A DNA stretch of 64,000 nucleotides from Planctomycetota bacterium (GTDB lineage: Bacteria > Planctomycetota > UBA1135 > GCA-002686595), in NCBI GenBank assembly GCA_029259595.1, contig JAJDEW010000131.1:1-64000 (forward strand). Direction: 5' to 3'. The stretch's first letter is position 1, and each line of letters starts with the position of its first letter. The notes under the pieces were generated by a model. It saw only the letters and a program-made list of their open reading frames with translations, was not told where the DNA came from and searched no databases. The position numbers and the translations under genes were made by a program. This document shows, in pieces, positions 1,074-17,125 of this stretch.

Positions 1074-3167
1074 ATGAAGAAATTCGTCCTTGCAGCCGCG
1101 CTCGTCACGGGCGCCACTCTCGGTCTCGAGAGCAGCGCTTTCGCGCACGGTGGACAGTACAGAGGTCCCGGCGACACCGTCCCGCCCGGCGGTGGCGGTA
1201 GCGGCGGCGGCGGCGCCGGCTCGCCCGGTCCGTCCGGTCCGTCCAGTCCCGGCCCCGGTGGCCCCAGCTCGCCCGGTCCCGGTGGCCCGGGTGCGCCCGG
1301 CGGCGCCGGCGGTGCCGCTGCGGCACCCGTCTCCGGTGGCGGCGGTGGCGGTGGTCCGGACCTGACCGGCTGGCCCTTCTGGTGGGAGTTCAACAAGGAG
1401 CCCTACCTCAACCTGAAGTCCGCGATCCACTCGGGCGGCACGAAGACCGGTTCCGACAGCTGGTTCCTCGGCCACGGCGAGCAGGAGCAGGGCAAGGACA
1501 GCATGCGTCCGTCGGAAGCCCAGATCCGCGAGAAGGTCGTTCCGGCCCTCAAGCGGGCGCTCGAGACCGAGACGAACAACGACATCGTCACCGGCTCCCT
1601 GATCGCGCTCGCGAAGATCGGCGACGTGAAGTCCGAAGGTGGTGACTCCGAGTTCGAGAAGATCATCGCCAAGGAGCTCACCAACAAGAACCAGGAGATC
1701 TCCGAGACCGCCGCGGTGTCGCTCGGCATCCTCGCCAACCCGGCTTCGATCGAGACCTTGGTCAGCCTGATGACGGACTCGCCCGCCGGGCGTTCGCTCG
1801 TCGGTCAGGGGGAAGTCCCCTTCCGCACGCGCTCCTTCGCCGCTTACGGCCTGGCCCTGATCGGTGCCGCGCCGGAGACCAGCGAAGTGCAGCGTCAGAC
1901 GATCGTCCGCGCGCTGGTCGACCAGATCCAGACCGACGACACGAAGTCGCGTGACCTCAAGGTCGCCTGCCTCGTCTCCTTGGGTCTCGTTCCGCTCGAG
2001 ACGATCGAGCCGGCCGAGCCGCCGACCGAGGGCGAACCCCTCGATCCCTCCAGCTGCCGCATCGCGCAGATGGACTACCTGATCCGCTTCCTCGAGGACG
2101 ACGACAACCGTTTCCTCGTCCGCGCCCATGCCCCGACGGCCCTCGCGCGTCTGCTCGAGAACCTGCCGTCCGAGCGCTACGGCGAGTACAAGGAGAAGAT
2201 TGCCAAGGACCTGCTCGAGCGCATCGGCAAGCGCTCGAAGGAGCCGAAGGAAGTCGTGCAGAGTGCGGTCCTCGCCCTCGGCCTGATCGGCGACCTCGAT
2301 TCCGATCCGATCGACAAGGAGATCCGCAAGGCACTCTCCGAGGTCACGAAGGATCAGGCCGACCAGCTGGCCCGCAACTTCTCCATGATCGCCATGGGCA
2401 AGGTCGGCGGAACCCGCGGATCCGGTGAGAAGATCGAGGACGGCATCAAGGACGCGAGCAAGTTCCTCACGAAGAACCTGACCGACGGCAAGTCGCAGAT
2501 CGTTCCGTGGGCCGGCCTCGGCATCGGCGTCATGGGACGCAAGCTGGCCGAAGCGGGCGTCACGTCCGGCGTCGTGACCGACATGCAGGCCGCCCTGCGC
2601 TCGACCCTCGACGACGAGAAGGGCTCCCGCGTGGGCGCCTACTCGATCGCCTGCGGGATCTTGCAGGACCAGGAAGCCGAATCGATCCTGCTCGAGAAGC
2701 TCGACCGCATCAAGGACGACGAGACCCGCGGCTACGTCGCCGTCTCCCTCGGCCTCATGGGTGCGCGCGACGCGATCGCCCCGATCCAGAAGATCGTCAA
2801 GGACGCCAAGTACCGCCCCGACCTCCTCAAGCAGGCCGCCATCGCGCTGGGTCTCTTGGGCGACAAGGAGCTCGTGAACGACCTGGCCACGATGCTGACG
2901 GAAGCCAAGAGTCTCGCCACGCAAGCGGCGCTCTCCTCGGCCCTCGGCTTCATCGGTGACCAGCGCTCGATCGACCCGCTCGTCGAGATGCTGGAGAATA
3001 AGGACCTGACCGAGCTCGCCCGCGGCTTCGCCGCGGTCGCCCTCGGCATCGTTGCGGACAAGGAGATCCTGCCCTGGAACTCGAAGATCGCCGTCGACCT
3101 GAACTACACCGCGTCGACCACGACCCTCAACGACCAGGAAGGCACCGGCATCCTCAACATCCTGTGA
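1074..3167 (+). CDS. Secreted HEAT-repeat protein 1 of the tandem cluster
   Basis: The product is 697 aa from the ATG at 1074, chosen because it opens a good signal peptide (MKKFVLAAALVTGATLG, likely cleavage after SSAFA). The mature start carries HGGQYRGPGDTVPPGG, then a Gly/Pro/Ser linker to about residue 98 with collagen-like GPSGPSSPGPGG runs. An anchor motif WPFWWEFNKEP sits at residues 100-110, followed by WFLGHGEQEQGK. About 13 helical HEAT-type repeats follow, many ending in A-x-x-L-G-x-x-G-D. The C-terminus ends GTGILNIL. HEAT solenoids bind proteins; no catalytic motif is visible. It is the closest relative of the next HEAT gene (same length, same motif position). It has its own sigma-54-type promoter and a hairpin terminator. 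The partner and role are unknown. Confidence 0.9.
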   Translation: MKKFVLAAALVTGATLGLESSAFAHGGQYRGPGDTVPPGGGGSGGGGAGSPGPSGPSSPGPGGPSSPGPGGPGAPGGAGGAAAAPVSGGGGGGGPDLTGWPFWWEFNKEPYLNLKSAIHSGGTKTGSDSWFLGHGEQEQGKDSMRPSEAQIREKVVPALKRALETETNNDIVTGSLIALAKIGDVKSEGGDSEFEKIIAKELTNKNQEISETAAVSLGILANPASIETLVSLMTDSPAGRSLVGQGEVPFRTRSFAAYGLALIGAAPETSEVQRQTIVRALVDQIQTDDTKSRDLKVACLVSLGLVPLETIEPAEPPTEGEPLDPSSCRIAQMDYLIRFLEDDDNRFLVRAHAPTALARLLENLPSERYGEYKEKIAKDLLERIGKRSKEPKEVVQSAVLALGLIGDLDSDPIDKEIRKALSEVTKDQADQLARNFSMIAMGKVGGTRGSGEKIEDGIKDASKFLTKNLTDGKSQIVPWAGLGIGVMGRKLAEAGVTSGVVTDMQAALRSTLDDEKGSRVGAYSIACGILQDQEAESILLEKLDRIKDDETRGYVAVSLGLMGARDAIAPIQKIVKDAKYRPDLLKQAAIALGLLGDKELVNDLATMLTEAKSLATQAALSSALGFIGDQRSIDPLVEMLENKDLTELARGFAAVALGIVADKEILPWNSKIAVDLNYTASTTTLNDQEGTGILNIL

Positions 3168-3212
3168 GCCGCTTCGAGCCCTGAGGGTCTACGGACCCGC
3201 TGGACTCCACGA

Positions 3213-3245
3213 GCCGCCCGGACGTGCGCTGCACGCCCGGGCGGC
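3213..3245 (+). terminator. Hairpin terminator after HEAT protein 1
   Basis: A perfect 9-bp stem, GCCGCCCGG (3213-3221) with CCGGGCGGC (3237-3245), encloses a second 4-bp stem GTGC-gct-GCAC (3224-3234). It lies 46 nt after the stop codon at 3167. There is no long T tract (TTCG follows), so it may be a weak or factor-assisted terminator. It may also serve the leftward gene ending at 3391. Confidence 0.55.
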
Positions 3246-3390
3246 TTCGCGTTCGGGGCGCCCCTGGCCAAACGAACCACGGCGTGCGCTCCGTGCGACG
3301 TCGCGCCCCGCGTCGCTCGTCCCCTTCCCAAACTACGCAACACCGCAGGCGCTTGGCTCCCATCCATCGCGAGCTCGCGACGCAGGCGCG

Positions 3391-3741
3391 TCAGCGCTCG
3401 TGGGTCACGCGGGCGCCAAAGCCCGCCTTCTCGAGGGCCGTGACGAGCTCCTGCGGTGCCACGTCCGCTCCGCACGTGACGCGAGCCGTGCGCCGCAAGA
3501 AGTCGACGCGGACCTCTTCGACGCCGGGGACGCGAGCGAGTGCAGCCTGCACGCGCGGTGGACAACCCGAGAGTCATGTCATGCCGCTGAGGGTCAGCTC
3601 GAGCGAACGCGTGCGAGCTTCCGCCACGGGTGGGCGAACCGGCGCAGGCTCGGGTTCGGTTCGACAAGCCCAGAGAGCGGCCCAGCACGCGACGACGAGC
3701 GCGCAGCGAACGGGGGTGGTGTAGGGCGCGGAGCGAACCAT
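3391..3741 (-). CDS. HMA-type metal-binding lipoprotein with in-frame TGA at the metal-site cysteine (possible selenoprotein)
   Basis: Reading through one TGA at 3574-3576 gives 116 aa from the ATG at 3741. The N-terminus MVRSAPYTTPVR plus CALVVACWAALWAC looks like a lipoprotein signal with lipobox LWAC. After a Pro/Glu spacer comes LELTLSGMT, then TGA, then LSGCPPRVQAALARVPGV, and onward to FGARVTHER and a normal TGA at 3391. This is a complete heavy-metal-associated fold: GMTCxxC motif region, V-x-x-A-L helix, V-x-V-x-F strand and a final A-G-F-x-A. The TGA falls where the first metal-site Cys is expected, though one extra residue (Leu) separates it from SGC. No other stop or frameshift is present. 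It may be selenocysteine, a nonsense mutation (a 3-nt insertion in TGC gives TGACTC) or a sequencing error. It lies antiparallel between two HEAT genes. Confidence 0.55.
3540..3552 (-). promoter_or_regulatory. Candidate SECIS-like hairpin downstream of the in-frame TGA
   Basis: On the minus strand GTGCA-GGC-TGCAC forms a 5-bp stem with a 3-nt loop whose first base is G. The stem starts 21 nt after the TGA and the loop G is 27 nt after it. An outer CGCG/CGCG pairing across an asymmetric internal loop could extend it. Bacterial SECIS elements lie within the coding region just after UGA, with a G early in the apical loop at roughly this distance. Such short hairpins are common by chance at this GC content, so the call is tentative. 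Confidence 0.3.
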
Positions 3742-4081
3742 CCGAGGACGCCGCGCAAAGGCGGCGGCCCCGACGATACCCGCTGCGGGACGAACGGGGG
3801 TGGCGGAACCCGAGTGCTCGTGCGTGTTACGCACGCTCCACGCCGGCGTAACCCGAGCGGAACGGGAACGCTCAAGGCTTCGAAGCGAGTGCCGACGAAA
3901 TCGGAGGTGGAAGTCCCCGCCCGAGTGCGCCGACGTGCCTGTGCGGCCGGAGGGGGAAGGGTCCCGGGGATTGGATGCGGGGCATGGCGCCTCCTGGCAT
4001 GACCGTTGCGCAGGTCCCCTGCACCGTTGCCCGCAATCGCTTCCCCCGGCGATGGCCCAACTTCTCGCAACACGGACTCCC
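3742..4081. other. Gene-free region between HMA lipoprotein and HEAT protein 2
   Basis: This 340-bp divergent intergenic region holds the sigma-54-type promoter at 3995-4010. It also holds a perfect 7-bp hairpin CGTGCGT-gtt-ACGCACG at 3819-3835, a possible operator for either gene. I see no credible coding sequence; the open frames on both strands lack initiation signals. Confidence 0.5.
3995..4010 (+). promoter_or_regulatory. Sigma-54-type -24/-12 promoter for HEAT protein 2
   Basis: TGGCATGaccgTTGCG has GG at 3996-3997 and GC at 4008-4009 with the required 10-nt spacing. It differs from the consensus only at the C of TGGCAC. The -12 element is about 73 nt before the ATG at 4082, close to the 80 nt seen for HEAT protein 1. 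The shared geometry supports co-regulation of the two closest paralogues. Confidence 0.6.
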
Positions 4082-6175
4082 ATGAAGGCTCACGTCCTCA
4101 CGCTCGCCCTGTCCCTCGTCACGTCGCTCGCACTCGCCAACACGCCCTGCGCCCACGGTGGTCAGTACCGAGGTCCGGGCGACACCGTGCCGCCGGGTGG
4201 CTCCGGTACCGGTGGCGGTGGCGGCGGGACGCCCGGACCGACCGGCCCGTCCGGTCCCGGCTCGGGTCCCGATTCCCCCGGTCCGACAGGACCCGCCAAC
4301 CCGTCGACGCCCCCGGGCGGGGTGTCTCGGGGCATCTCGCCCGGCTCTCTTGGAAGCCCGGGCCCGGACCTCACGTCCTGGACGTTCTGGTGGGAGTTCA
4401 ACAAGGAAGCCTTCCTGAATCTGAAGACCGCCCTGCACATCGGCGGGACCACGACCGGCAGCGACAACTGGTTCCTGGGTCACGGAGTCCAGGAGCAAGG
4501 CAAGCGCAGCCTGCGCCCCACCGAGGCGCAAATCCGCGGTCAGGTCGTTCCCGCACTCCTGCGCACGCTCGAGACGGAAACGAACAACGACATCGTGACC
4601 GGCGCCCTGATCGCCTTGGCGAAGATCGGAGACGTTCATTCGGAGGACGGCGGCTCGCTCTTCCTGCCGATCCTCGAACAGGAGCTCTCGAACGCCAACC
4701 AGGAGATCGCCGAGACCGCCGCGGTCTCGCTCGGCATCCTCGCGAATTCCGCCGCGATCGACTTGCTCGAAGGGCTCGTGCTGGATACGCCGCTCGGACG
4801 TACCCGGGCCGAACGACGCGAAGTCCCCGTTCGTACGCGAGCCTTTGCGGCGTTCGGTCTCGGGCTCGTCGGCGCGGCACCCGAGACGACCGAAGCACAG
4901 CGCCAGCGCATCGTCACCGCGCTGGTGACGGCGGTCGAAACCGACGACACGAGCTCCCGAGATCTCCAGGTTGCCTGTCTCGTTTCGCTCGGACTCGTTC
5001 CGCTCCACGACCTCGACGCGCCGGTCGTCGAAGGAGACGGACGCGCCCGCGTCCACTCCCGCACGGACCAGATCGACTGGCTGTTGGCCTTTCTCCGGGA
5101 CGAGAAGCGCCATGATCTCGTGCGCGCCCACGCTCCGACCGCCCTGGTCCGGCTGCTCGAGGGCCTGCCCGTCGAGCGCTACGAAACTCTCAAGGCCACG
5201 CTGGCGACCGACTGGATCCCCCGCCTGGGCAAGCGTTCGAAGGACCCCGACGCTCTCGTCCAGAGCATCGTCCTCGCGCTCGGCCTGCTCGGGGACCTCG
5301 ACGCCGATCCGATCGACCGCGAGATCCGCGCAGCGCTCGCCGCCACTCCGAGGACGGCGAAGAATCGACTCGCCCGCAACTTTTCCTTCATCGCCATGGG
5401 ACAACTCGCCGGCCGCTCCGGCACGGGAGCCGACCTGGAGGAAGGCCTGCGCGAAGCACGGCGTTTCCTGAGCGAGGGGCTCGCCCGCGGAAAAATGAGC
5501 GGCGTCAAGCCCTGGGCCGGCCTCGGGCTGGGCCTCTTCGGACGCGGCCTGGCACAACGCAGCGGCCACGAGGGCACGCTGAGCGAACTGGGCGCGAGCC
5601 TGCGCACGGCCTTGGAAGAGGAGCGCTCGCCGCGCCTCGTCGGCGCCTACGCCATCGCGTGCGGGCTCCTGCGTGACCAGGAATCGGAGGCGATCCTCCT
5701 GGAGAAGCTCGCACGCATCCAGGACGACGAGACGCGCGGCTACTTGGCGGTGGCCCTCGGCCTGCTCGGCGCCCGCGACACGATCCCGACCCTGCAAGCC
5801 TTGGTGGCGGACTCCGCCTACCGCCACGACCTCCTGAAGCAGGTCGCGGTCGCACTCGGACTGCTAGGTGACAAGGAGGTCGTCGCGAGCTTGGCCCGCA
5901 TGCTCGCGACGTCCAAGAGTCTCGCCACGCAGGCCGCCGTCTCCTCGGCACTCGGCGCGATCGGCGACACCCACTCGATCGAGCCCCTGCTGGGCCTGCT
6001 CGAGTCGACGGATGTCACCGACCGTGCTCGCGGCTTCGCGGCTGCGGCGCTCGGCATCGTCGGCGACAAGGAACTCTTGCGTTGGAACGCCAAGATCGCC
6101 GCTGACCTCAACTACACGGCCGCGACCACGACCCTGAACGATTCCGGTGGGACCGGCATCCTCAACATCCTGTAG
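4082..6175 (+). CDS. Secreted HEAT-repeat protein 2 of the tandem cluster
   Basis: The product is 697 aa, the same length as HEAT protein 1. The ATG at 4082 opens the signal peptide MKAHVLTLALSLVTSLALA. The mature part begins near HGGQYRGPGDTVPPGG, followed by a collagen-like Gly/Pro/Ser/Thr linker. The anchor WTFWWEFNKEA starts at residue 100, as in protein 1, followed by WFLGHGVQEQGK. HEAT-type repeats fill the rest and the C-terminus reads GTGILNIL. Similarity to protein 1 runs over the whole length, including TETNNDIVTG and DDETRGY, so the pair looks like a recent duplication. Loop residues diverge most. It has its own sigma-54-type promoter. It is probably a secreted scaffold or binding protein. 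Confidence 0.9.
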   Translation: MKAHVLTLALSLVTSLALANTPCAHGGQYRGPGDTVPPGGSGTGGGGGGTPGPTGPSGPGSGPDSPGPTGPANPSTPPGGVSRGISPGSLGSPGPDLTSWTFWWEFNKEAFLNLKTALHIGGTTTGSDNWFLGHGVQEQGKRSLRPTEAQIRGQVVPALLRTLETETNNDIVTGALIALAKIGDVHSEDGGSLFLPILEQELSNANQEIAETAAVSLGILANSAAIDLLEGLVLDTPLGRTRAERREVPVRTRAFAAFGLGLVGAAPETTEAQRQRIVTALVTAVETDDTSSRDLQVACLVSLGLVPLHDLDAPVVEGDGRARVHSRTDQIDWLLAFLRDEKRHDLVRAHAPTALVRLLEGLPVERYETLKATLATDWIPRLGKRSKDPDALVQSIVLALGLLGDLDADPIDREIRAALAATPRTAKNRLARNFSFIAMGQLAGRSGTGADLEEGLREARRFLSEGLARGKMSGVKPWAGLGLGLFGRGLAQRSGHEGTLSELGASLRTALEEERSPRLVGAYAIACGLLRDQESEAILLEKLARIQDDETRGYLAVALGLLGARDTIPTLQALVADSAYRHDLLKQVAVALGLLGDKEVVASLARMLATSKSLATQAAVSSALGAIGDTHSIEPLLGLLESTDVTDRARGFAAAALGIVGDKELLRWNAKIAADLNYTAATTTLNDSGGTGILNIL

Positions 6176-6198
6176 GCACCCTCCCGCGCGTCCCTTAG

Positions 6199-6228
6199 GA
6201 GGCTGGGGCAACAAGAGGCTGGGGCAAC
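6199..6228 (+). repeat. 14-bp tandem direct repeat
   Basis: GAGGCTGGGGCAAC occurs at 6199-6212 and again at 6215-6228, a period of 16 bp. It lies 23 nt after the stop codon of HEAT protein 2. I cannot say whether it is functional or a slippage duplication. Confidence 0.5.
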
Positions 6229-6263
6229 CAGCTTCCGCGCCATTCCAGCACAGAGGACTCGGG

Positions 6264-6432
6264 GAGCTCGCCCGTTGAACAAGTCACCCGGCGCCATGAC
6301 GACGTCCTCCACCAGAGTGCGGCACCCGCAAGCCTCGCCGAATCCACGGATTCGCCTGGGCTTCCAGTTGCCTCACCAAGGCGGATGTCGAAGCCCTGTG
6401 GCAACCGAAGCACGTGTTCAACGGACTCCCGG
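6264..6432 (-). repeat. ~168-bp interspersed element, copy B
   Basis: Copy B is in the same orientation as copy A. The left arm carries GCCCGTTGAACAAGTC (6270-6285), matching the inner part of copy C's right arm. The core is a perfect palindrome, GAATCC-AC-GGATTC (6340-6353). The right arm is decayed (CCGAAGCACGTGTTCAACGG at 6405-6424). Its span of about 169 bp equals that of copy C (168 bp). It sits between HEAT protein 2 and the 3' end of the truncated transposase gene. Together with the 14-bp repeat it fills most of the gap 6176-6509. Confidence 0.7.
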
Positions 6433-6509: not shown

Positions 6510-6902
6510 TCAGCCGGCTCGGACGTCGGCGAAGCGCAGGGTCTTGCCCGGCTCGAGTGGGCCGCGCAGATCGAGGTCCTGCCGGCTCATGTGGCGGGCG
6601 ATCTTCTTGTACTTCAGAAGGGTGCAGGTCAGAGACAGGCCGAGTCGGCGCGACGACTCCCGGAAGCCGGCTCCCGACAAGAGCAGGCGGAACAAGGGCG
6701 CATTGAGGTGCGGTTTGTGGTCGCGGTAGCTCAGCTGGAAGGTCTGACGCGAGAAGCCGCGGCCGCAGGTCCGGCAGAGATAGCGCTGGATCGGTCGACG
6801 TCGGCAGCGAGCTCGATAGAAGCCGTTGCGGCGGCAGAAGCGCGCCTCGGGTTCCTGGTGCTGGCGGCATGCTGAATTGGGGCAACGGGGCGGTCGGAAC
6901 AT
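6510..6902 (-). pseudogene. Truncated transposase-like protein: zinc-ribbon N-terminal part
   Basis: The product is 130 aa from the ATG at 6902, which has a strong Shine-Dalgarno GGAGGAG nine nt upstream. The sequence starts MFRPPRCPNSAC, continues FYRARCRRRPIQRYLCRTCG and then RGFSRQTFQLSYRDHKP. This is the zinc-ribbon plus helix-turn-helix entry domain of IS1-like transposases, with Cys pairs in CPNSAC and CRTC. The region FRLLLSGAGFRESSRRLGL fits the helix-turn-helix. The frame stops at 6510 before any DDE catalytic domain, and I see no continuation downstream. It is probably an insertion-sequence remnant, though the strong ribosome binding site leaves room for an expressed DNA-binding protein. 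Element copy B lies 78 bp beyond its 3' end. Confidence 0.6.
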
Positions 6903-7165
6903 GACGGAATCTCCTCCGCGGGCCTTCCGGGCCCGACGCAGCAGAGACCGCTCCAGGCGCGTGCAGGTCTCCGCAAACCTCGGATTTCCAGCAGGGATCC
7001 CCCTCGAACCGCAGCTCGTCCGACGACGCGCGTGCCTTGGACGACGAAGTCCCATCGTGAGAATCGGCCTGGAGTTGCGACCGCGCGCCCGCGTACGACT
7101 ATCTTCCAAGGACCGTTCTCGGCCCCGCGGCGAGGCCGCGCTCGAGGCGGCGCTGAACCTTCCCC

Positions 7166-9298
7166 ATGAAGAACCGCACCACGACCGCCACGTTCACCCG
7201 GGTCGCATTCCACATTCGTGCCTGCCTCGGGCTGCTTCTCACCGCCTTACCGCTGGCAGCACACGGAGCCAACTTCCCCCCGCCGCCAGCGACGCCGCCC
7301 TGGAACGGCCCCACCGGCGATGGCGGACCGACGCGCGGTCCCCGCAGCCCGGGCGGCGGCTCGACCGGCCCCGCCTCTCCGCTTCCGCCCGGATCGACTT
7401 CGCCCGGGCCAAGCTCTCCAGGCAGCCCGGGCGGCTCGGCCGCGGCCAGCAGTCCGGGCGCGGAAGGCCTCGACTTCGCCTCGTGGCACCTTTGGTGGGA
7501 GTTCAACAAGGAGCCCTTCTTGGCGCTGAAGGAGCACCTGTACACTACCGAAATCCAGAGCGGGACCGGCGGCTTCTATCTCGGGGACGGAGTCGAGCCC
7601 CAAGGTGAGGCTCCAGCCCGTTTCCAGAGACCGAGCGCCGAAGACGTCCGCGAACGAATCGCCCCCGCGCTCGAGAAGGCGCTCGCCGTCGCCGACTCGA
7701 ACGACATGACGACGGCCTGTCTCGTCGCCCTGGCCAAGCTCGGTGGCGAGGGGGCCGAGGGCGCGCGGCTCGCGGACCTGTTCCTCCCCTTCCTGCAGGA
7801 TCCCAACCAGGAAGTGGCCGAGACAGCCGCCGCGGCCCTGGGCATCCTCGGCCATGAGGCCTCCGCCTTCCGACTCGGTGAACTGGCCGAGAACACGGAC
7901 CGCGGAGCGCGACTCGTCGACGCCAAGCGCGTGTCGGTTCGCACGCGGGCCTTCGCGGCCTACGGGTTGGGATTGATCGGTGCGCGGAGCGACCGGCTCG
8001 ACGTGCGTCGCTTCGTCGTGCACAAACTGCTGCGCGTCGCCCTGGCCGACGACACGAGCACGCCCGACCTCGGCGTCGCGTGCATGATCGGGGCGGGGCT
8101 CGTGCCCTTGCCCTGGTCGGGGAACGTCCCGCAGGACGATCAGCAACGCTCGCTGCCGGCCACGACCTCGCGCGAGGCCCAGATCACCGTTCTTCTGGAC
8201 CTGCTCTCGGACAAGAAGACCGACCGCATCGTCCGCGCCCACGTCGCGGGCGCCATCGGCAACCTCCTGGCCTACGAACGCTCGGGATCCGAGCTCTCGG
8301 CGACTCTTCGTGCGAGCCAGGCACGGATGAAGGAGCAGGCGGCCGACGTGCTCTTGGACGCCCTGCGCGAAAAGGGCAGCTTCACGCGCGAGGTGGCCCA
8401 GTCTGCCGCGTTGGCGCTGGGGCGGATCGCGGACGGCGACGCCGATCGACTCGATCAGCGCATCCGCGCGGAACTGGCACGTTCAGGGACCGACGCCAAC
8501 GATCGTGTCACGCGCTTCTTCGCGCTCCTCGCGCTCGTCGAAGCGGCGCCACGCGTCGGTGACGGCGACCGCCGAGAGGTCACGGACGTGCGAGCCCTGC
8601 TCCTGAAAGGTCTCGCGCGTGGCGACGGGGAGACGCGGCGTCAGTGCGCGTTGGCCCTCGGTCTTCTCGAGCGGCGCTTGGGTGAGCTCGGCACCGTTCC
8701 CGCTCGGGACGCGACGAATGCCCTGCGTCGTTGCCTGACGGAGGCCAAAGATCCCAACGACGTCGGGGCCTACGCGATCGCCAGTGGCATCGCGCGCGCG
8801 CCGGAGGCTGCGAACGAGCTCATCCAGAGCCTCGCGGACCAACGCGACGACCGCGCCCTCGGCTATGTCGCGATTGGACTGGGCTTGCTCGAGGTCCATA
8901 CGGCGCGGGAGCCCGTGCTCGAGCTCGTGGACGGGGCGACGTACCGGCCCGGACTCCTGCGCGAGGCAGCCACGGCTCTGGGCTTGCTCGGCGATCGCAA
9001 GGCGGTCGAAGTCCTCCTGGCGAAGTTGCACAAGGCCAACTCGCTCGCCAGCCAAGCCTCTCTGGCGCAAGCGGTCGGACGGATCGGGGACGCGGGAGCG
9101 ATCGAACCGCTCGTCGGGATGCTCGGCGATCGAAGCCTGACCTCGCGGGCCCGCGCCTTCGCCGCGGTGGCCCTGGGAAGCGTGGCAGACAAGGACCCCC
9201 TGCCCTGGAATTCACGCCTGTCCGTGGGACTGAACTACGCCGCGGCTCCGGCGACCCTGTTCGACCTGGCAGGCTTCGGCATCCTCAACATCCTGTAG
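7166..9298 (+). CDS. Secreted HEAT-repeat protein 3 of the tandem cluster
   Basis: The product is 710 aa. The ATG at 7166 starts a basic n-region and a hydrophobic core (ACLGLLLTALPLAA) ending near HGA. A Pro/Gly-rich linker follows to about residue 100 (PPPPATPPWNGPTGDGG, PGSTSPGPSSPGSPGG). The anchor motif WHLWWEFNKEPF is at residues 107-118, followed by GFYLGDGVEPQGE, then HEAT-type repeats with A-x-A-L-G-I-L-G signatures. The C-terminus ends GFGILNIL. It lacks the GPGDTVP motif of copies 1, 2 and 6. It is closest to HEAT protein 4 (shared DVRRF/YxVHKL and LVPLPWSG). No sigma-54-type promoter is visible in the 260 bp before it, so it may be expressed differently from copies 1 and 2. Confidence 0.9.
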   Translation: MKNRTTTATFTRVAFHIRACLGLLLTALPLAAHGANFPPPPATPPWNGPTGDGGPTRGPRSPGGGSTGPASPLPPGSTSPGPSSPGSPGGSAAASSPGAEGLDFASWHLWWEFNKEPFLALKEHLYTTEIQSGTGGFYLGDGVEPQGEAPARFQRPSAEDVRERIAPALEKALAVADSNDMTTACLVALAKLGGEGAEGARLADLFLPFLQDPNQEVAETAAAALGILGHEASAFRLGELAENTDRGARLVDAKRVSVRTRAFAAYGLGLIGARSDRLDVRRFVVHKLLRVALADDTSTPDLGVACMIGAGLVPLPWSGNVPQDDQQRSLPATTSREAQITVLLDLLSDKKTDRIVRAHVAGAIGNLLAYERSGSELSATLRASQARMKEQAADVLLDALREKGSFTREVAQSAALALGRIADGDADRLDQRIRAELARSGTDANDRVTRFFALLALVEAAPRVGDGDRREVTDVRALLLKGLARGDGETRRQCALALGLLERRLGELGTVPARDATNALRRCLTEAKDPNDVGAYAIASGIARAPEAANELIQSLADQRDDRALGYVAIGLGLLEVHTAREPVLELVDGATYRPGLLREAATALGLLGDRKAVEVLLAKLHKANSLASQASLAQAVGRIGDAGAIEPLVGMLGDRSLTSRARAFAAVALGSVADKDPLPWNSRLSVGLNYAAAPATLFDLAGFGILNIL

Positions 9299-9332: not shown

Positions 9333-9386
9333 CTGACCGCGGCCGACATCCCCAGCCGTCGCCCTGAAGCATGGGCCGGCGGTCAG
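9333..9386. terminator. Bidirectional hairpin terminator between convergent genes
   Basis: CTGACCGC-GGCC (9333-9344) pairs with GGCC-G-GCGGTCAG (9374-9386), a 12-bp stem with one bulged base and a loop of about 29 nt. It lies between HEAT protein 3 (ends 9298) and the converging response regulator, whose stop codon (9383-9385) is inside the right arm. No T tract is present. Confidence 0.5.
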
Positions 9387-9814
9387 TCCGAGGGAAAGCG
9401 CACGACGTCCAGGTACGCTCGGAGCATGTTGAAGAAGACATCCATGCTCTCGTTGTTCGCTTCTTTGATCACGTAGCCCGCGGCGTGCGCGTCGTAGGCC
9501 CTGCGCATGTCGGCCTCGTGCCGCGAAGTCGTCAGGATGATCACGACGCTGTCCTGGAAGTCGGGATCGGAGCGAAGCTCGTACAGGAACTCGTGTCCGC
9601 TCATCCCCGGTATGTTCAGGTCGAGCAAGATCAGGAAGGGGCGTCGGATGGGAGGACGGCCTTGCCCGCGCAAGGCCTGCAGGGCTTCGAGACCACCGTC
9701 GACCCGTTCGAACATGGCCTCGAGTCTGCACTTCTTGATCTTCCGCTCGATGAGCATGGCATCGACATCGTCATCCTCGACGAGCAGGATCGTGGGGCGA
9801 GACTTGGCAAACAT
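9383..9814 (-). CDS. Receiver-only response regulator (Rcp1/CheY-like)
   Basis: The product is 143 aa and is a single receiver domain. The acidic pocket is VEDDDVDA near residues 12-19. The phospho-acceptor Asp lies in LILLDLNIPGMSG, the conserved Thr in VIILTTS and the Lys in GYVIKEAN. The loop between Glu-Asp-Asp and the Asp is long with basic insertions, as in the Rcp1 family that partners phytochrome-like or hybrid histidine kinases. No output domain is present, so it must act by protein contact. It is the second gene of a leftward pair, 24 nt after the other regulator. The pair sits inside the HEAT cluster but no kinase gene is nearby. Confidence 0.85.
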   Translation of the reverse strand: MFAKSRPTILLVEDDDVDAMLIERKIKKCRLEAMFERVDGGLEALQALRGQGRPPIRRPFLILLDLNIPGMSGHEFLYELRSDPDFQDSVVIILTTSRHEADMRRAYDAHAAGYVIKEANNESMDVFFNMLRAYLDVVRFPSD

Positions 9815-9838
9815 GGTTCGGGAAGCTCGGGTCAGGCC

Positions 9839-10243
9839 TCATTCCTCCGAGGGCTCCGCGTGGAACTCCACCGCCGCCGAGATGGCCAGCCGAAGGCTCT
9901 CGCTGTCGATCTCTCCTTTGTCGAGCGCCGCGTGGACCCCTTCTCGGCGAACGCGGTCGCTCAGTTCCGGCGTGACCTGACCGCTCAAGAGGATCACGGG
10001 TGGATGGCCCGCACCCAGCAATCGCAAGACGTTCATGCTGTCGTAGGCACCGAGGAAGTGATCGAGCAGAATCACGTCCGGAGCAGGATCGAGTCTCTCC
10101 GGAACATCGCTCAGATCCGCTGCCTCACGCACGTCGTAGCGCTCGTCGAGGAACCGGCGAATCAGCTCGCGGTCCACGTCATCGTCGTCGATCAAGAGGA
10201 CCTTCAAAGTCTCGTCGCGCAACCAGGGAAGAATCTGAGTCAT
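9839..10243 (-). CDS. Receiver-only response regulator
   Basis: The product is 134 aa. The ATG at 10243 has AGGAG six nt upstream, which supports the start. One receiver domain covers the protein: acidic pocket LIDDDDVDREL near residues 17-27, phospho-acceptor Asp in DVILLDHFLG, Ser in ILLSGQV and Lys in AALDKGEIDS. There is no DNA-binding or enzymatic output domain. It is the first gene of a two-gene leftward unit with the Rcp1-like regulator. Two receivers with no kinase suggest a phosphorelay whose sensor is encoded elsewhere. Any link with the flanking HEAT genes rests on position only. Confidence 0.85.
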   Translation of the reverse strand: MTQILPWLRDETLKVLLIDDDDVDRELIRRFLDERYDVREAADLSDVPERLDPAPDVILLDHFLGAYDSMNVLRLLGAGHPPVILLSGQVTPELSDRVRREGVHAALDKGEIDSESLRLAISAAVEFHAEPSEE

Positions 10244-10735: not shown

Positions 10736-12844
10736 ATGCGGACGACCAACATGCTTTCCTACATCGCTCGGCTCGGTGGTCTCGCGCTCGTCTCCACCTG
10801 CGGAGTCGAACTCGAGGCCGCGCCGGCTCCGTTCCACGGCGCTTCCTTTCCCCCGTCGCCTGCCCCGACGGCACCCCGCTTACCCGGGCAACGCCCTCCG
10901 GGCCCGGTCTCCCGCCCGGTACCCATCCCCGCTTCCCCCGGTGGGACGCTGCCCTCCGGACCGAATCCGGCCTTGCCTCAGAGCTCCCCGGAATCGCTCG
11001 GCGCCGACGTCGACTTCACCTCGTGGCACTGGTGGTGGGAGTTCAACAAGGAACCCTTCCTCGAGCTCAAGGACCACCTCTACGAGGGCGGCGTCGCTTC
11101 CGGTACCGAGGGCTTCTTCCTCGGGCAGGGATATCGCGATCAAGGTGACGTTCCTGACCCGCGCCGCAAGCCGTCTTCGACCCAGATCCGAGAGATCGTG
11201 CTGCCGGCGCTCGTCAAGACGCTGGCGACCGCGAATTCGAACGACGTCGTCACCGCCTGCCTGATCGCACTGGCCAAGGTCGGCGAAGACCAGTCGAATT
11301 CGAGCGGAGTCGAGCTCGCGAGCGTCATCCGTCCGTATCTGAAGGACTCGAACCAAGAGATCGCCGAGACGGCCGCGGCGGCCCTCGGGATCCTGGGCAA
11401 CGAAGCCTCGGCCTTGACGCTGAGCGAGCTCTTGCTCGATACGCCCGCGGGACAGCGTGCGGTCGACTCCGGACGAGTCAGCCTCCGCACCCGTTCTTTC
11501 GCCGCCTACGGACTCGGCCTCCTGGGTGCGCAGACGGACAACGTCGACGTGCGGCGCTACATCGTCCACAAGCTCACGCGGGCCCTGCTCGAAGACGACA
11601 GCGCCACGCAAGACCTCGGTGTCGCCTGCGTGCTGTCCCTCGGGCTGGTTCCGCTGCCATGGTCCGGGGACGTCTCGGACTCCGAGAACCCGCGCGTCCT
11701 GCCTGCTACCGCCTCGCGCGAAGCCCAGATCCGGGTCCTCTTGGACGTCTACGACGAACGTGACACCGATCGCTTGGTGCGCGCCCACATCGTCAACACG
11801 CTCGGCGCCCTGGTCGGGCAGGATCGCCCGAGGGCCGAGGACGACTTGCCCCTGCGGACCAGCTTTCGCCACTGGAAGGACAAGGTCGCCGACACCCTCT
11901 TCGATGCCCTGCGCGAGAAGGGTCGCGCGACCGCGGAAGTCGCGCAGTCCGCGGCCCTGGCACTGGGGCGTCTCGGGGACTCCGACAACGATCCTGTCGA
12001 CGAGAAGATCCGCGCGACCTTGACGAAGGTCGACACTCTTTCGAGCGACGCCCTCACGCGCAACTTTGCCTCGATCGCCTTGGCCTACGTCGGCTCGCGG
12101 CCAGGCGAAGGCGCAGCGATCGGAGCGCCGGACGTTCGCACCGAACTCCTACGACGCCTGTCCCGCGGCGGCAATTCGACAGAGCGTTGGGCAGCGATCG
12201 CGCTCGGCGTCTTCGAGCGCCGCATGGCGGCCGGTGGTCACGTGCCGCCGAACACCACGCTGTCCGCGCTGCGCCGCTCCCTGGCCGATGCCCGCTCGCC
12301 GCGCGACGTCGGCGCCTTCGCGATCGGCTGTGGCATCACCCGCGACCCGGCCGCGGAAGAGGCTTTGCTCGACCGGCTGAAGAAGATCGACGACGACCAG
12401 GCCCGCGGCTACCTCGCGCTCGGGTTGGGGTTGATCGACACGCCGGGGTCGCTGCCCGCCGTACGGAGGCTCGTCGACGGCGCGACGTACCGACCGCGCT
12501 TGCTGCGTGAGGCGGCTACTGCGCTGGGGTTGCTCGGTGACCGCGATGCGGTCGGAATCTTGATCGAGCGCCTCGCGAAGGCCGGCTCGCTCGCGACGCA
12601 AGCCTCGCTGGCCCAGGCGCTCGGCCGGATCGGCGACGCCAGCGCGATCGACCCACTCGTCGAGATGATCGGAGACCGGCGCCTGACACAGAGCGCGCGC
12701 GCCTTCGCTGTGATCGCCCTCGGAATCGTCTCCGACAAGGACCGCCTGCCCTGGAACGCGACCTTGTCTGCAGGTGTGAACTACGCCCAGGCTCCCCCGA
12801 CCCTCTATGACCAGAACGGCTTCGGGATCCTGAACATCCTTTGA
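10736..12844 (+). CDS. Secreted HEAT-repeat protein 4 of the tandem cluster
   Basis: The product is 702 aa from the ATG at 10736; a second ATG at 10751 (MLSYIARLGG) is also possible. The N-terminus is a signal peptide (YIARLGGLALVSTCG), followed by a Pro-rich linker (PFHGASFPPSPAPTAPRLPG). The anchor WHWWWEFNKEPF is at residues 97-108, then GFFLGQGYRDQGD. HEAT-type repeats run to the C-terminus, which reads GFGILNIL. It pairs with HEAT protein 3 in repeat sequence and spacing. The stop codon (12842-12844) overlaps a TTG, and the ATG of the next HEAT gene is 8 nt further on, so the two are very likely translated from one message. Confidence 0.9.
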   Translation: MRTTNMLSYIARLGGLALVSTCGVELEAAPAPFHGASFPPSPAPTAPRLPGQRPPGPVSRPVPIPASPGGTLPSGPNPALPQSSPESLGADVDFTSWHWWWEFNKEPFLELKDHLYEGGVASGTEGFFLGQGYRDQGDVPDPRRKPSSTQIREIVLPALVKTLATANSNDVVTACLIALAKVGEDQSNSSGVELASVIRPYLKDSNQEIAETAAAALGILGNEASALTLSELLLDTPAGQRAVDSGRVSLRTRSFAAYGLGLLGAQTDNVDVRRYIVHKLTRALLEDDSATQDLGVACVLSLGLVPLPWSGDVSDSENPRVLPATASREAQIRVLLDVYDERDTDRLVRAHIVNTLGALVGQDRPRAEDDLPLRTSFRHWKDKVADTLFDALREKGRATAEVAQSAALALGRLGDSDNDPVDEKIRATLTKVDTLSSDALTRNFASIALAYVGSRPGEGAAIGAPDVRTELLRRLSRGGNSTERWAAIALGVFERRMAAGGHVPPNTTLSALRRSLADARSPRDVGAFAIGCGITRDPAAEEALLDRLKKIDDDQARGYLALGLGLIDTPGSLPAVRRLVDGATYRPRLLREAATALGLLGDRDAVGILIERLAKAGSLATQASLAQALGRIGDASAIDPLVEMIGDRRLTQSARAFAVIALGIVSDKDRLPWNATLSAGVNYAQAPPTLYDQNGFGILNIL

Positions 12845-12852
12845 CGACGAGC

Positions 12853-14856
12853 ATGAGCCCCGCGAACGCACCTCGCTACCGCCTGCTCGAGCTCGCGACA
12901 CTCGGTGCCCTTTGCTGCCTTCTCTTGCCGAGCTCTCGCGTCGAGGGCCAGGAGCCCGAGCCCCAGGCGCGTCAAGGGGACGATGACGGGGACGGCGGGA
13001 GTGGACCGGGGACCGGCTTGCCGGACGACATCGATCCGGAGAGCGTCTTCGGCAGCGACGAATTCGAGCTGCCTGGCTCGTCGTGGCGCACCTGGTGGGA
13101 TCTGAATCAGGAGTTCTTCCTCGAGCTCAGGCGTCACGTTCAGCGGCCACGTCAGCTGTATTCGAACGACGGCTTCTTCCTGGGCCACGGAGCCAAGCAA
13201 CAGGTCACGGTCGGCAAGCATCGCCCCGGACTCGAGGACGTCCGCAGCGAGGTGCTGCCCTTCCTGCTCCAGACCTTGCGCGATGAGCGCGCCGTCGTCG
13301 TTCAAGAGGCCCTCTTGCTCGCCATCGCGCGCGGCGCTCGGGCGCTTCCCCTCGAGGAGCGGCTGGCCTATCTCGAGCCGCTGCGCGCGGCCCTGGCGGA
13401 CAAGAATCGTGCCGTCGCACGCCAGGCCTTGCTCGCGATCGGTGTGCTCGGCAATCCCGAGGGTGCCTTCGTGCTCGCGGAAGTCTTGGCGAACTCGCCA
13501 GAAGGGCGCCGCCAGGTCGGCGACTCCGAAGTGCCCGACGCGCTACGCGCCTTTGCGGCCTTCGGCCTGGGCTGGCTCGGAGCCGACACGGAGAACGAGG
13601 ACGTGCGCCGCTTCGTCGTCCACCACCTCGTGCGCGCGGCGGAAGAGGATCGAACGCCATCGCGCGACGTGGAGGTTGCGGCCTTCGTCGCGCTCGGGAT
13701 GGTGCCCCTCGAAGACGATGGCAACGAGCTGTCCGAGCAATCCGCCCCGCCACCTGCCGCCAGCTTGACCGGTCAACTCGCCTTCTGCCTGGACGTCGTC
13801 GACGATGCACGCCGCGACCGCCTCTCGCGCGCGCACGCCGCCGGGGCGCTGGGACGGCTCTTCGGGGCCCTGGAGCAGGACCGGCGCGAGATTCTGAAAG
13901 AGGCCTTCGCGACCCGCCTCGCGAAGAGCCTGCGCCGCTTCACACCGGATCCGATCGCACTGCGCCAGAGCGCCGCCTTCGCGCTGGGATGGATGGGCGA
14001 CGCCGACGACGACGCGATCGACCGCCGCATTCGCGCAGCCTTGGCGGCGGTGCAGGAGACCCAGGGGGATCGCGCGACGCGTCAGCTCGCTTTGCTCTCC
14101 CTTGCGCGCGTCGCCGCCACGCCAGGCCGTGGCGGGAGGGAACCCGTCGATCGCGTCGCCCGCCACATCCTGCGCCAGCTCGCCCGCGGGAAGGGGGACG
14201 CCCGCCCCTTCGCCGCACTTGCCGCCGGTCTGCTCGGCCATGAGCTAAGGCGCACGGGAGCCTCCGTACCCGCCGCTCTGTCGCGAGCCGTGCAGGCTGC
14301 GCTCGACGAACACGGCTCTCCGGCCGAAGCCGGCGCCTACTGCATCGCGCTCGGGCTCCTCGGAGCGACCGAGGCGACCGAGACGCTCGAGGAGCAGCTC
14401 GATTCGGGCCGTCAGGAACTCCGGGGGTACGCCGCGTTGGCCCTGGGGCTGCTCGGCGCCCTCGATGCGATGCTGCCCATCCGGGCCGAGCTCGAGCGGT
14501 CGGCCGCGACCCCCGCCCATAGCGAACGGCTGGCCGTCGCGCTGGCTCTGCTCGAAGACGACGAGACCCACCAGAGGCTCACCCGGCAGCTCGCCGCGAG
14601 CCCGTCCAACTCGACGCGGGAGGCGCTCTGGATCGCTCTCGGCCGCACGGGCGATGTGCGCGCGATCGAACCCTTGCGCGCGGCGATCCGCGGAGAGCGC
14701 GCCACACAAAGCGAGCGTGCTCTGGCGGCCGAAGCGCTGGGACGTGTCGTCGAACCCGACGAACTGCCGTGGGACGCGCTCTTCGTTCCGGGGACCAACT
14801 ACCGTACGGCCCCCGCTACCCTCTTCGGGCGCCAAGGCGTCCTGGATTCGCCATGA
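12853..14856 (+). CDS. Secreted HEAT-repeat protein 5 of the tandem cluster (divergent)
   Basis: The product is 667 aa from the ATG at 12853; a TTG at 12841 overlapping the previous stop is an alternative. The N-terminus (YRLLELATLGALCCLLLPSS) is a signal peptide. The linker is short and acidic (QGDDDGDGGSGPGTGLPDD) rather than Pro-rich. The anchor motif is altered to WRTWWDLNQEFFLELRRHV near residues 78-96, then GFFLGHGAKQQ. HEAT-type repeats follow with many Arg and Glu residues, and the C-terminus is GVLDSP instead of GILNIL. Tight spacing after HEAT protein 4 implies co-expression and perhaps a complex of the two. It is clearly a paralogue, but an older or faster-evolving one. Confidence 0.87.
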   Translation: MSPANAPRYRLLELATLGALCCLLLPSSRVEGQEPEPQARQGDDDGDGGSGPGTGLPDDIDPESVFGSDEFELPGSSWRTWWDLNQEFFLELRRHVQRPRQLYSNDGFFLGHGAKQQVTVGKHRPGLEDVRSEVLPFLLQTLRDERAVVVQEALLLAIARGARALPLEERLAYLEPLRAALADKNRAVARQALLAIGVLGNPEGAFVLAEVLANSPEGRRQVGDSEVPDALRAFAAFGLGWLGADTENEDVRRFVVHHLVRAAEEDRTPSRDVEVAAFVALGMVPLEDDGNELSEQSAPPPAASLTGQLAFCLDVVDDARRDRLSRAHAAGALGRLFGALEQDRREILKEAFATRLAKSLRRFTPDPIALRQSAAFALGWMGDADDDAIDRRIRAALAAVQETQGDRATRQLALLSLARVAATPGRGGREPVDRVARHILRQLARGKGDARPFAALAAGLLGHELRRTGASVPAALSRAVQAALDEHGSPAEAGAYCIALGLLGATEATETLEEQLDSGRQELRGYAALALGLLGALDAMLPIRAELERSAATPAHSERLAVALALLEDDETHQRLTRQLAASPSNSTREALWIALGRTGDVRAIEPLRAAIRGERATQSERALAAEALGRVVEPDELPWDALFVPGTNYRTAPATLFGRQGVLDSP

Positions 14857-15013
14857 AGGCCGCGCGGGTCGTCCACCGTGGGGCTGGCGTAACCCCGCAA
14901 GAGCCGACACCCCGATGCGGGCAGTCGCTGCTTTCGTATTCCTCTTGGCACATCGTTTGTTGTCTGGCGGGGATGCGCTCTCGCAAGCCCGAATTCCCCG
15001 AGGGAGATCGACC

Positions 15014-17125
15014 ATGATCCAGAGATGGCTACTGCTCGCCGCACTCGCGACTCCCCTTTCGATCCATGCCCAGACGGATGCCGGAGGCGGTACCGCTCCG
15101 GCCCAGCCCGGCGGCACGTACACCGGACCCGGGGACACCGTTCCTGCGGGCCCCAGCAATCCGGGCGGACCGACGACGGGCGGGCCGCACAACCCGGGAC
15201 CGGGGGACACGACCGGCAGTGGTACGAGCGGGGGTCTGCCGGGTGCACCGGCGGTTGGTGGCTTGAATCCCGGGGTCATTCCGCCCGGCGCCACCCAGCC
15301 GGAACCGCCTGTAACTCCGAGCAGCCGTCCGCGCGTCGACAACCCCCAGTCCTGGCAACTCTGGTGGCACTACAACCGCTGGGACCACCTCGATGCCGGC
15401 TCGCTCGATCGCTTTGCCACCTCCGGCACGGGCAACTTCTTCCTTGGCCGGGGTGAGAAGCGTCAAGCCCCGCCGCTCTTGAAGGCCTCGACGGTACAGA
15501 TGCGTGACCTGGTGGAACCGGCGCTGCTCGAGGTGCTGCAGGCCCGCAACTCGAGCGACCTCGACATCCATGCGATCCACGCGCTTTCCAAGCTGCGGCA
15601 CGACTTCGCCAAGGAGGACGACGACGCTGCGGACTTTGCCTCCGTGCTCGCCGGATGCCTGCAGAACGGCAACCTGGAGGTCGCGGAGAAGTCCGTGCTC
15701 GCCATGGGAATTCGCGGAGAGGCGCGCTTCTTGGGGCCGCTCGTCAGCATCTTGCTCGAACACCCGGACGCGAACGAACTGCTCGGACGCTCCCGTCCGA
15801 ACTACCGTCTGCGCATCTATTCCGCCTACGCGCTCGGTCTCCTGGCGGAGCGCAACGACGACCCATCGCTGCGCGCCAAGGTCTACCATGCCCTGGCCCG
15901 CTGCCTGCGCACCGAGCGCTCCGAGATTCAGGCCGCCTGTCTGCTCGCGATCGGGCTCTGTCCGCTGCCGATGGAAAGCCTCGCTGCTTCGAGCGACGAG
16001 GTCCGAGCGCTCGGCTCGAATCGCATCGAACAGGTGCTCGACGTGTTGGCCTTCTTCGAGGATGTCGACCAGGACACTCAAGCGCGTTCCCAGGCTCCGA
16101 ACGCCCTCGCCCGCCTCGTGCGGGACGACGCGCCCGAGAGCCTGCGCTCGCGCGTCCTGCTCGGTCTGCTGGCCGCTGTCGGCCCGCACACACGCGCGCC
16201 GAAGGAGGTCCAGAATGGGGCCGTGATCGCGCTCGGAAGAATCGGTCGCTCCGGCGATGACCCGATCGACCGCGAGGTCCGCGAAGAGCTGGAACGCCTG
16301 GCCTACCGTTCGAGCGCCAATCGCCAGACGCGCTACTTCGCGATGGTCGCCCTCGGTGAAGCCGCCTCGCGTCCGGGCTCCGGCGAACAGGCTTTCGAAG
16401 GGCTCGAGTTCGCGCGCAAGGTGCTCCTGCGCCAGATGGCCCGTTCGCGCGGACAGGCCCTGGCTTGGACCTGCCTCGCGCTCGGACTCCTGGAAGAGGG
16501 TGCCGCCGACCGAGGCGAGGTCCCCCCCGCCGAAGTCGCCGAAGCCCTGCGCTTCACTCTGCGCAAGAACCGCTCGGCCGAGGTGGCCGGTGCCGCCGCT
16601 CTGGCCCTGGGACTCCTGCGCGATCAGGAGTCCGAGCCCATTCTGGTCGAGCGCATGATCGACGCCGGGGAGATGTACTTGAAGGGCTATCTGGCCCTGT
16701 CGCTCGGGATGATCCGTGCGGCGAGCAGTATCGATCCCCTGATCACCGCCCTCGAGGGGTCCATCAACCAACCCTTCGTCCTCAACTCGTGTGCGATCGC
16801 GCTGTCGATGCTGGGGGAACAGGAGGTCGGGGCACGCCTCGTGGACCTGTTCGACGAGGCTTCCAATCCCGAGACCCAGGCGGCCATCGGCTCGGCCATG
16901 GGCTGGATCAAGGACCCTCGCCCGCTGACTCCGCTCTGCCAACGCCTGCGGAACACGAAGACCGCCGATCGTTCGCGGGCCTGGATGGCGGTCGCGATCG
17001 GACGCGTCTGTGACGAAGATTCCTGGCCCTGGGTCGGGCGCATGTCCGTGGGGATCAACTACGACGTCGACCTACCGACGTTGCTCGAATACGAGTACGA
17101 GAACGGACTCCTGGACTTGCCCTGA
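15014..17125 (+). CDS. Secreted HEAT-repeat protein 6 of the tandem cluster
   Basis: The product is 703 aa. The ATG at 15014 follows GAGGGAG by six nt and opens the signal peptide MIQRWLLLAALATPLSIHA. An in-frame ATG at 14914 (MRAVAAFVFLLAHRLL) could start a second, longer signal-like region. The mature part has QPGGTYTGPGDTVPAGP, the motif shared with copies 1 and 2, and a Gly/Pro/Thr linker to about residue 108. The anchor is WQLWWHYNRWDHLD near residues 113-126, then NFFLGRGEKRQ. HEAT-type repeats follow, and the C-terminus is GLLDLP. A near-match to a sigma-54 promoter (TTGGCACAtcgtTTGT at 14945-14960) lies 54 nt before the start but has GT in place of the -12 GC. Confidence 0.88.
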   Translation: MIQRWLLLAALATPLSIHAQTDAGGGTAPAQPGGTYTGPGDTVPAGPSNPGGPTTGGPHNPGPGDTTGSGTSGGLPGAPAVGGLNPGVIPPGATQPEPPVTPSSRPRVDNPQSWQLWWHYNRWDHLDAGSLDRFATSGTGNFFLGRGEKRQAPPLLKASTVQMRDLVEPALLEVLQARNSSDLDIHAIHALSKLRHDFAKEDDDAADFASVLAGCLQNGNLEVAEKSVLAMGIRGEARFLGPLVSILLEHPDANELLGRSRPNYRLRIYSAYALGLLAERNDDPSLRAKVYHALARCLRTERSEIQAACLLAIGLCPLPMESLAASSDEVRALGSNRIEQVLDVLAFFEDVDQDTQARSQAPNALARLVRDDAPESLRSRVLLGLLAAVGPHTRAPKEVQNGAVIALGRIGRSGDDPIDREVREELERLAYRSSANRQTRYFAMVALGEAASRPGSGEQAFEGLEFARKVLLRQMARSRGQALAWTCLALGLLEEGAADRGEVPPAEVAEALRFTLRKNRSAEVAGAAALALGLLRDQESEPILVERMIDAGEMYLKGYLALSLGMIRAASSIDPLITALEGSINQPFVLNSCAIALSMLGEQEVGARLVDLFDEASNPETQAAIGSAMGWIKDPRPLTPLCQRLRNTKTADRSRAWMAVAIGRVCDEDSWPWVGRMSVGINYDVDLPTLLEYEYENGLLDLP

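Follow-up and report, generated by a model that had tools for sequence, protein, structure and literature searches.

A family of exported HEAT-repeat proteins in Planctomycetota and two short peptides shared with unrelated exported proteins

Results

Six tandem genes for exported HEAT proteins

We analyzed a stretch of 64,000 nucleotides (the window) that begins where contig C37 begins, in a Planctomycetota genome bin of 6.07 Mb with 69.5% G+C. Positions 1074-17125 hold six complete open genes on the + strand, whose products of about 667-710 residues are predicted exported alpha-solenoids, homologous from end to end. The genes of the array and those that interrupt or adjoin it are given below, with the supporting evidence in brackets.

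1074-3167, + strand: copy 1, canonical secreted HEAT protein, 697 aa (Pfam, alignment, AlphaFold)
4082-6175, + strand: copy 2, canonical secreted HEAT protein (alignment, own-genome score)
about 6513-7109, - strand: fragment separating copies 2 and 3, transposase-like by eye (no match in Pfam)
7166-9298, + strand: copy 3, HEAT protein (Pfam, alignment, own-genome score)
9386-9814, - strand: response-regulator receiver domain protein between copies 3 and 4 (PF00072, 56 bits)
9842-10243, - strand: second receiver domain protein between copies 3 and 4 (PF00072, 39.5 bits)
10736-12844, + strand: copy 4, HEAT protein (Pfam, alignment, own-genome score)
12853-14856, alternative start TTG at 12841, + strand: copy 5, HEAT protein (alignment; ortholog L011:7241-9265 in the tree)
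15014-17125, + strand: copy 6, HEAT protein (orthologs in the tree: the last copies of L011-L015, and L031:850-2964)
17128-17676, - strand: convergent neighbour, exported protein of ~180 aa, with TPR in the L109 ortholog (conserved neighbour)
17673-19304, - strand: fused MFS/spermidine-synthase-like protein (NF037959, 180 bits, cut-off 40; conserved neighbour)
19301-20566, - strand: exported PHA-depolymerase-like protein (NCBIfam, 42.8 bits, below the cut-off of 150; conserved neighbour)

Each copy consists of a signal-peptide-like N-terminus, a low-complexity linker, a W-x-x-WW-[EDH]-x-N motif, an [FW][FY]LG-x-G segment, HEAT repeats and a conserved C-terminus. In full-length alignment with copy 1, copies 2-6 were 63, 42, 43, 32 and 32% identical, respectively; the Pfam model HEAT_2 (PF13646) matched all six with 48.5-81.3 bits (gathering cut-off 27.7), and the own-genome scores of the array genes were 910-1073 bits, far above chance. 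The initial annotation of a six-gene tandem array with one architecture is thus borne out by the open same-strand genes, the HEAT_2 matches and the end-to-end alignment. As it had also stated, the terminal GILNIL is exact in copies 1-4, and there only (GVLDSP in copy 5, GLLDLP in copy 6), and nothing suggests catalysis, in that Pfam and NCBIfam searches detected no catalytic domain in the array proteins. Copies 4 and 5 lie directly next to each other, with copy 6 starting less than 160 bases further on. Since the two receiver genes and the transposase-like fragment, all on the - strand, interrupt the array, it is not one tight operon. The two receiver proteins are neighbouring and stand-alone, and the transposase-like fragment shows a zinc-finger-like CPN..C/CRTC pattern. 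A seventh, divergent homolog lies elsewhere in the genome (G000:C2, about 99309-101033; L007, L009); it contains DAVDWTVFWEFNKLTW and ends in ...LPLQSTL. Two distant HEAT relatives, L304 and L306, resemble it at their ends and carry YAGPGDSVPP and YAGPGDTVPS.

In the closest relatives, sdhA-sdhB precede the array, and the array converges on the TPR-like exported, MFS/spermidine-synthase-like and PHA-depolymerase-like genes. sdhA and/or sdhB lay upstream of HEAT genes in ten loci examined; window positions 1-1073, where the contig starts, gave no sdhB match. The convergent genes also adjoin HEAT genes in other lineages (L109, L110, L113, and partly L112 and L127). A functional link with sdhCAB was considered and rejected, since other, unrelated housekeeping genes (dxr, purM-like, rseP-like) keep their positions as well; the neighbourhood is therefore taken as deep conserved synteny, of little weight as evidence of function. 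The nucleophile-elbow GxSxG of the PHA-depolymerase-like protein is not evident in most aligned relatives, and judging by its sequence this product is possibly a pseudo-enzyme.

Distribution and phylogeny of the family

Searching 84,980 species for the WW pattern led to 46 loci with relatives. The taxon-bearing records among them are Planctomycetota except for one Candidatus Binatia bin, and a few are labelled just 'bacterium'; hence, the motifs are not generic to HEAT proteins. When the 46 loci were rescanned with the family profile, tandem copies in related genomes, which the initial annotation had named as a supporting observation, were found as arrays of six (L012), five (L011), four (Pla86, L044; and L034) and three (Pla163, L018), with single copies elsewhere. 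In the class of the source genome, 147 of the 151 genomes, from 85 of the 87 genera, carry the family, with up to 8 matches per genome, often in tandem; across Planctomycetota, 76 of the 246 sampled genomes gave matches at 1e-20. Full-length homology, the WW helix and the NY..TL..G[IV]L tail, which define what we call the planctomycetal HGG-YRGP/WW HEAT family, were found in other genera, and relatives fetched from other Planctomycetota lineages mostly show an AHGG-x-[YF]-[RK]-G-P mature N-terminus, the WW helix, an NYRA...ILDIL tail and tandem pairs.

The tree confirmed the proposed pairing of copies 1+2 (support 100/99) and 3+4 (100/100). Copy 5 grouped with L011:7241-9265 (99/96), and copy 6 joined the last genes of other arrays in a seven-member clade (100/100); both copies have orthologs in other genera. 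On this phylogeny, the two pairs are recent, but types 5 and 6 represent old groups of orthologs; the description of the family as expanding thus fits the pairs and not types 5 and 6.

Pfam and NCBIfam searches recovered generic HEAT only and placed the family under no specific name. Furthermore, neither the family nor the motif code described below was found under any name in Pfam, NCBIfam, PDB searches or the open-access literature, in agreement with the earlier statement that there is no obvious described counterpart. The HEAT fold and repeats are already known. A 2013 survey reported many uncharacterised alpha-solenoids in Planctomycetes (PMC3837014).

Predicted folded and disordered parts

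We then modelled copy 1 with AlphaFold from two alignments, a deeper one of 60 relatives (pLDDT 86, pTM 0.84) and a shallower one of the 27 canonical copies (pLDDT 77, pTM 0.79). The elements concerned, together with their counterparts in other copies, are the following.

1146-1187, + strand: residues 25-38 of copy 1, disordered motif HGGQYRGPGDTVPP at the mature N-terminus (conservation; pLDDT <50 in both models)
1365-1421, + strand: copy 1 W-W helix TGWPFWWEFNKEPYLNLKS, residues 98-116 (AlphaFold, in the fold)
1446-1496, + strand: copy 1 loop TGSDSWFLGHGEQEQGK, residues 125-141, disordered shared motif (motif search, AlphaFold)
3069-3164, + strand: copy 1 C-terminal tail LPWNSKI..GILNIL, residues 666-697 (AlphaFold)
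4154-4195, + strand: copy 2 mature N-terminal motif HGGQYRGPGDTVPP (motif search)
4460-4485, + strand: copy 2 loop SDNWFLGHG (motif search)
7565-7590, + strand: copy 3 loop TGGFYLGDG (motif search)
15110-15145, + strand: copy 6 N-terminal motif GGTYTGPGDTVP (motif search)
15428-15453, + strand: copy 6 loop TGNFFLGRG (motif search)

In the deeper model, residues 148-660 form a regular helical solenoid of paired antiparallel helices, and residues 12-92 and 126-139 are disordered; in the shallower model, residues 1-94 and 122-141 are disordered and the W-W helix is retained. This helix (residues 100-119 in the deeper model) lies on the solenoid in both, with pLDDT 91-94 and 71-79, respectively. 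The C-terminal tail is docked in the deeper model (pLDDT 84-93), with pLDDT 43-77 in the shallower one. The modelled fold thus includes the W-W helix and probably also the tail. The initial annotation had taken the W-W motif for an anchor and the C-terminus for a tag; both roles lost ground, as the helix is folded in both models and the tail docked confidently in the deeper one only. The elements that look like tags are instead YRGPGDTVPP in the disordered N-terminus and the loop TGSDxFFLGxG, represented by the peptides HGGTYRGPGDTVPPGG (N-terminal type) and TGSDDFFLGRG (loop type). The W-W and FLG segments had been listed correctly by the annotation, which missed the YxGPGDTVP common to the mature N-termini of copies 1, 2 and 6. 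The last 21 residues of copy 1, NYTASTTTLNDQEGTGILNIL, contain no PEP-CTERM- or LPXTG-type signal and matched no NCBIfam sorting model. As the copy 1 models have no predicted strands and a disordered N-terminus, the N-terminal beta-propeller of PVC membrane-coat-like proteins is absent. A closed toroid like that of the proteasome subunit RPN2 was also dismissed, since the similarity is one of profiles only and the Foldseek matches listed are open ARM/HEAT folds with TM <0.35 by query length.

Conservation of the N-terminal peptide

HGG[TQ]YRGPGDTVPP sits directly after the predicted signal-peptidase site. Among the 27 canonical copies, which were picked partly for their N-terminal motif, HGG-x-YRGPGDTVPP is the most conserved 14-mer, with 4.11 bits against 2.36 in the linker beside it and 2.42 in the solenoid; in 60 rows not picked by motif, this window ranks fifth among non-overlapping windows, and HGG is present in 43 of the 60. 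Such conservation is hard to explain by folding, because the peptide is disordered in both AlphaFold models. Moreover, GPGDTVPP is written in 88 different nucleotide spellings in the fetched DNA, which argues that the motif is kept by protein selection and rules out a mobile DNA insert as the source of its sharing. The FLG loop as a whole is not strongly conserved in the 27 canonical copies (2.18 bits); our case for it is built on the core of the motif and on its reappearance in other proteins.

Since the D of GDTVPP is invariant, and the T in front of its V mostly so, we considered that GDTVPP may be the target of an O-linked modification of exported proteins; Bacteroidota modify a D-[ST]-hydrophobic sequon in this way. 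The motif was indeed seen only in exported or membrane proteins, bar one match judged to be chance. However, the conservation spans 14 positions including HGG and PP, and the FFLG motif lacks such a sequon, so that we regard a modification site as quite improbable.

The same peptides in unrelated exported proteins

GPGDTVPP occurs in 96 of the 151 class genomes, with 0 in the reversed control, and outside the listed HEAT genes it was found in YfbK-type vWA proteins (L090, L093, L105) and alpha-2-macroglobulins (A2M; L091, L092). The relaxed pattern [YF]xG[PA]GD[ST]VP, searched in 61 genomes, gave 95 sites in 57 genomes and 0 in both reversed-pattern control columns. We fetched and classified the sites outside known HEAT genes; the remaining sites coincide with or resemble HEAT family matches. 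Of the 95 sites, 16 are non-HEAT.

vWA/YfbK proteins (7): L301, L218, L183, L093, L090, L202, L199
A2M (5): L305, L307, L091, L092, L211
VIT-vWA proteins (2): L302, L309
giant exported protein (1): L311 (Pla163), 41% identical over its length to L256
small exported-looking protein (1): L303, 298 residues

Among the other fetched sites, L304 and L306 are the distant HEAT relatives mentioned above, L310 is a HEAT-like fragment and L308 is unclassifiable. The strict loop pattern TGSDx[FW][FY]LGxG was likewise found outside HEAT genes, in vWA proteins, A2M (L253), VIT (L258, which matches TIGR03788 below its cut-off) and the giant L256. Both motifs occur together in the vWA proteins L090, L194, L199 and L272, the A2M L091 and the VIT protein L309, and they stand side by side in L309 (GGTYKGPGDSVPG...TGSSDWFLGQGRKSE) and L272 (TGSDDFFLGRG...GTYRGAGDAVP). 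A motif match in an EAL-domain-like frame (L100) and FLG matches in GlmS-like, DUF1549-like and antisense frames were judged by eye to be chance.

With vWA/YfbK proteins chosen by Pfam and not by motif, 12 of 24 carried either or both motifs, compared with 0 of 566 neighbouring control genes. As the linkers are Gly/Pro-rich in all these families, the array proteins might be ordinary secreted HEAT paralogs whose linkers are alike through common composition only. This explanation is largely refuted and hardly credible: block shuffles that keep local composition gave mean numbers of motif carriers of 0 and 0.004, against 5 and 9 of the 24 observed, and the reversed-pattern controls gave 0. Hence, the same peptide is present on unrelated exported proteins above chance. 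Only 1 of 13 Pfam-chosen A2Ms had a motif; the sharing by this family is real but uncommon.

The giant exported-looking proteins L089, L256 and L311 (Pla163) form a family of >1700 aa with 40-41% identity and carry GPGDTVPP, YRGAGDTVPP or TGSDDFFLGRG in their linkers. L089 and L256 had no Pfam or NCBIfam match, and a PDB search of the family was negative. The CAGE protein has been reported in Planctomycetota (PMC12485934); that the giant family might be related to it is a lead only. The small open frames of 292-298 residues, L277 (G153, another Planctomycetota lineage) and the above-mentioned L303 (G082), are exported-looking and non-HEAT, with GGSYGGPGDTVPPG and GGTYHGPGDTVPG. A third linker motif, LxxLGY[VAL][GD], recurs in vWA and A2M proteins (L202, L215, L218, L220 and others) and is probably widespread in exported proteins.

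Positions of the shared peptides

In the A2Ms L091, L305 and L307, and in L253 for the FLG motif, the peptide lies between PF07703 (A2M_BRD) and PF00207 (A2M), which we take to be the bait-region position of macroglobulins. In both of the loci checked, an ECF sigma gene (Sigma70_r2/r4) precedes the vWA gene (L202 and L215), whose product has an anti-sigma-like N-terminal segment followed by a TM-like segment (by eye). L202 is the vWA protein of the source genome itself; its peptide, YKGAGDTVPP, is located after the TM-like segment and before the vWA domain.

These positions bear on the main rival to docking, namely that the motif is a protease site at which cleavage would shed the ectodomain of the putative vWA anti-sigma factor (a site-1 cut freeing the ECF sigma), spring the A2M trap at its bait region and trim the HEAT N-terminus. 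The sites in L202, in the A2M bait-region position and at the HEAT mature N-terminus are all exposed linkers, the first two suit a protease, and cleavage would yield much of the pattern expected from docking. However, cleavage of a HEAT protein at YRGPGDTVPP would release no more than about ten linker residues, a poor account of near-invariance over 14 positions; this strictness of the HEAT N-terminus suits docking. In addition, the motif is Pro/Gly-rich, and the genes examined have no gene for a dedicated protease next to them. We therefore consider a protease site rather unlikely, while giving it more weight than any other alternative.

HEAT/ARM solenoids commonly bind extended peptides, and the receptor could thus be the HEAT solenoid itself, its groove binding YRGPGDTVPP/FFLG of other copies in self-assembly as well as vWA, VIT and A2M clients. 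The family is class-wide and multi-copy, and its nearest Foldseek folds include peptide-binding ARM proteins, though with TM by query <0.35. On the other hand, both AlphaFold models leave the peptides undocked from the groove of the protein that bears them, and the solenoid is highly variable in copies 5 and 3/4, which makes this proposal improbable.

Discussion

The N-terminal peptide is disordered yet the best-conserved part of the canonical copies, persists through 88 nucleotide spellings, and recurs in non-homologous exported proteins at exposed inter-domain sites, as expected of a short linear recognition motif, and we read both peptides in this way. Tentatively, we favour docking to a common putative extracytoplasmic partner. 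The exported HEAT proteins would serve as extracytoplasmic scaffolds, each an open alpha-solenoid from the W-W helix to the C-tail that displays two disordered peptides, HGGxYRGPGDTVPP and TGSDxFFLGxG, to be read by one or two such partners. The same peptides between the domains of ECF-linked vWA/YfbK proteins, at the A2M bait-region position, and in VIT-vWA and giant proteins would bring these to the same partner, so that HEAT proteins, sensors and traps may form one envelope network; from copy to copy, the face of the solenoid would vary and the peptides would be either retained or dropped. Against docking count the lack of GPGDTVPP in copies 3, 4 and 5, the lack of a recognisable motif in about half of the Pfam-fetched vWA proteins and most A2Ms, and the lack of chromosomal linkage of HEAT genes to vWA or A2M genes. 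The wider proposal, an extracytoplasmic short-linear-motif code of Planctomycetota that would link phylum-specific HEAT scaffolds, ECF-linked vWA, VIT and A2M proteins to a common receptor or protease in an envelope-sensing and assembly network, is possible and is offered with slightly more reserve.

The array proteins share the repeat type and the predicted fold with HEAT_2 (PF13646), HEAT_PBS (PF03130) and the alphaReps, the latter being the best PDB profile matches, whereas no whole-solenoid PDB match was present among the matches listed (best TM 0.33 by query), and the W-W helix, the C-tail and the disordered peptides are specific to the array family. Local repeat similarity also extends to the phycobilin lyases CpcE/CpeY and to NblB, but the array proteins score 15-37 bits (at most 36.7) against NCBIfam cut-offs of 300-600, and those proteins are cytoplasmic while the array proteins are exported. 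PEP-CTERM/exosortase and sortase tags likewise place a short signal on otherwise unrelated exported proteins, VIT-vWA included; in contrast, the motifs described here sit at the N-terminus or within the protein, and a hydrophobic helix with a basic end is absent from the C-terminus of the HEAT proteins. The proposed docking would work like cohesin-dockerin and other peptide-docking envelope complexes, in which a small module on many exported proteins docks to a common partner, except that the module here is a disordered peptide of 10-14 residues with a putative receptor. The motif-bearing vWA proteins, with their anti-sigma-like N-terminus, TM-like segment (by eye) and upstream ECF sigma gene (two loci), recall RseA-type proteolysis of ECF anti-sigma factors, but with a vWF_A-vWA-YfbK_C ectodomain. 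We know of no parallel to a motif that links ECF anti-sigma-like proteins with HEAT scaffolds.

Two named relatives, Pla163 and Pla86, presumably place the source class with the 'Saltatorellus' clade. Members of this clade reportedly alter their shape to a degree not matched by other phyla of bacteria (PMC11481906). The HEAT family is near-universal in its class yet nameless in the libraries searched, and the distribution of the two peptides hints at a recognition code outside the cell membrane that was not previously described. If the shared peptides are docking or cleavage sites, two short synthetic peptides would provide a handle on an envelope machine of Planctomycetota, and a single testable hypothesis would tie together ECF signalling, protease traps of the macroglobulin type and surface scaffolds.
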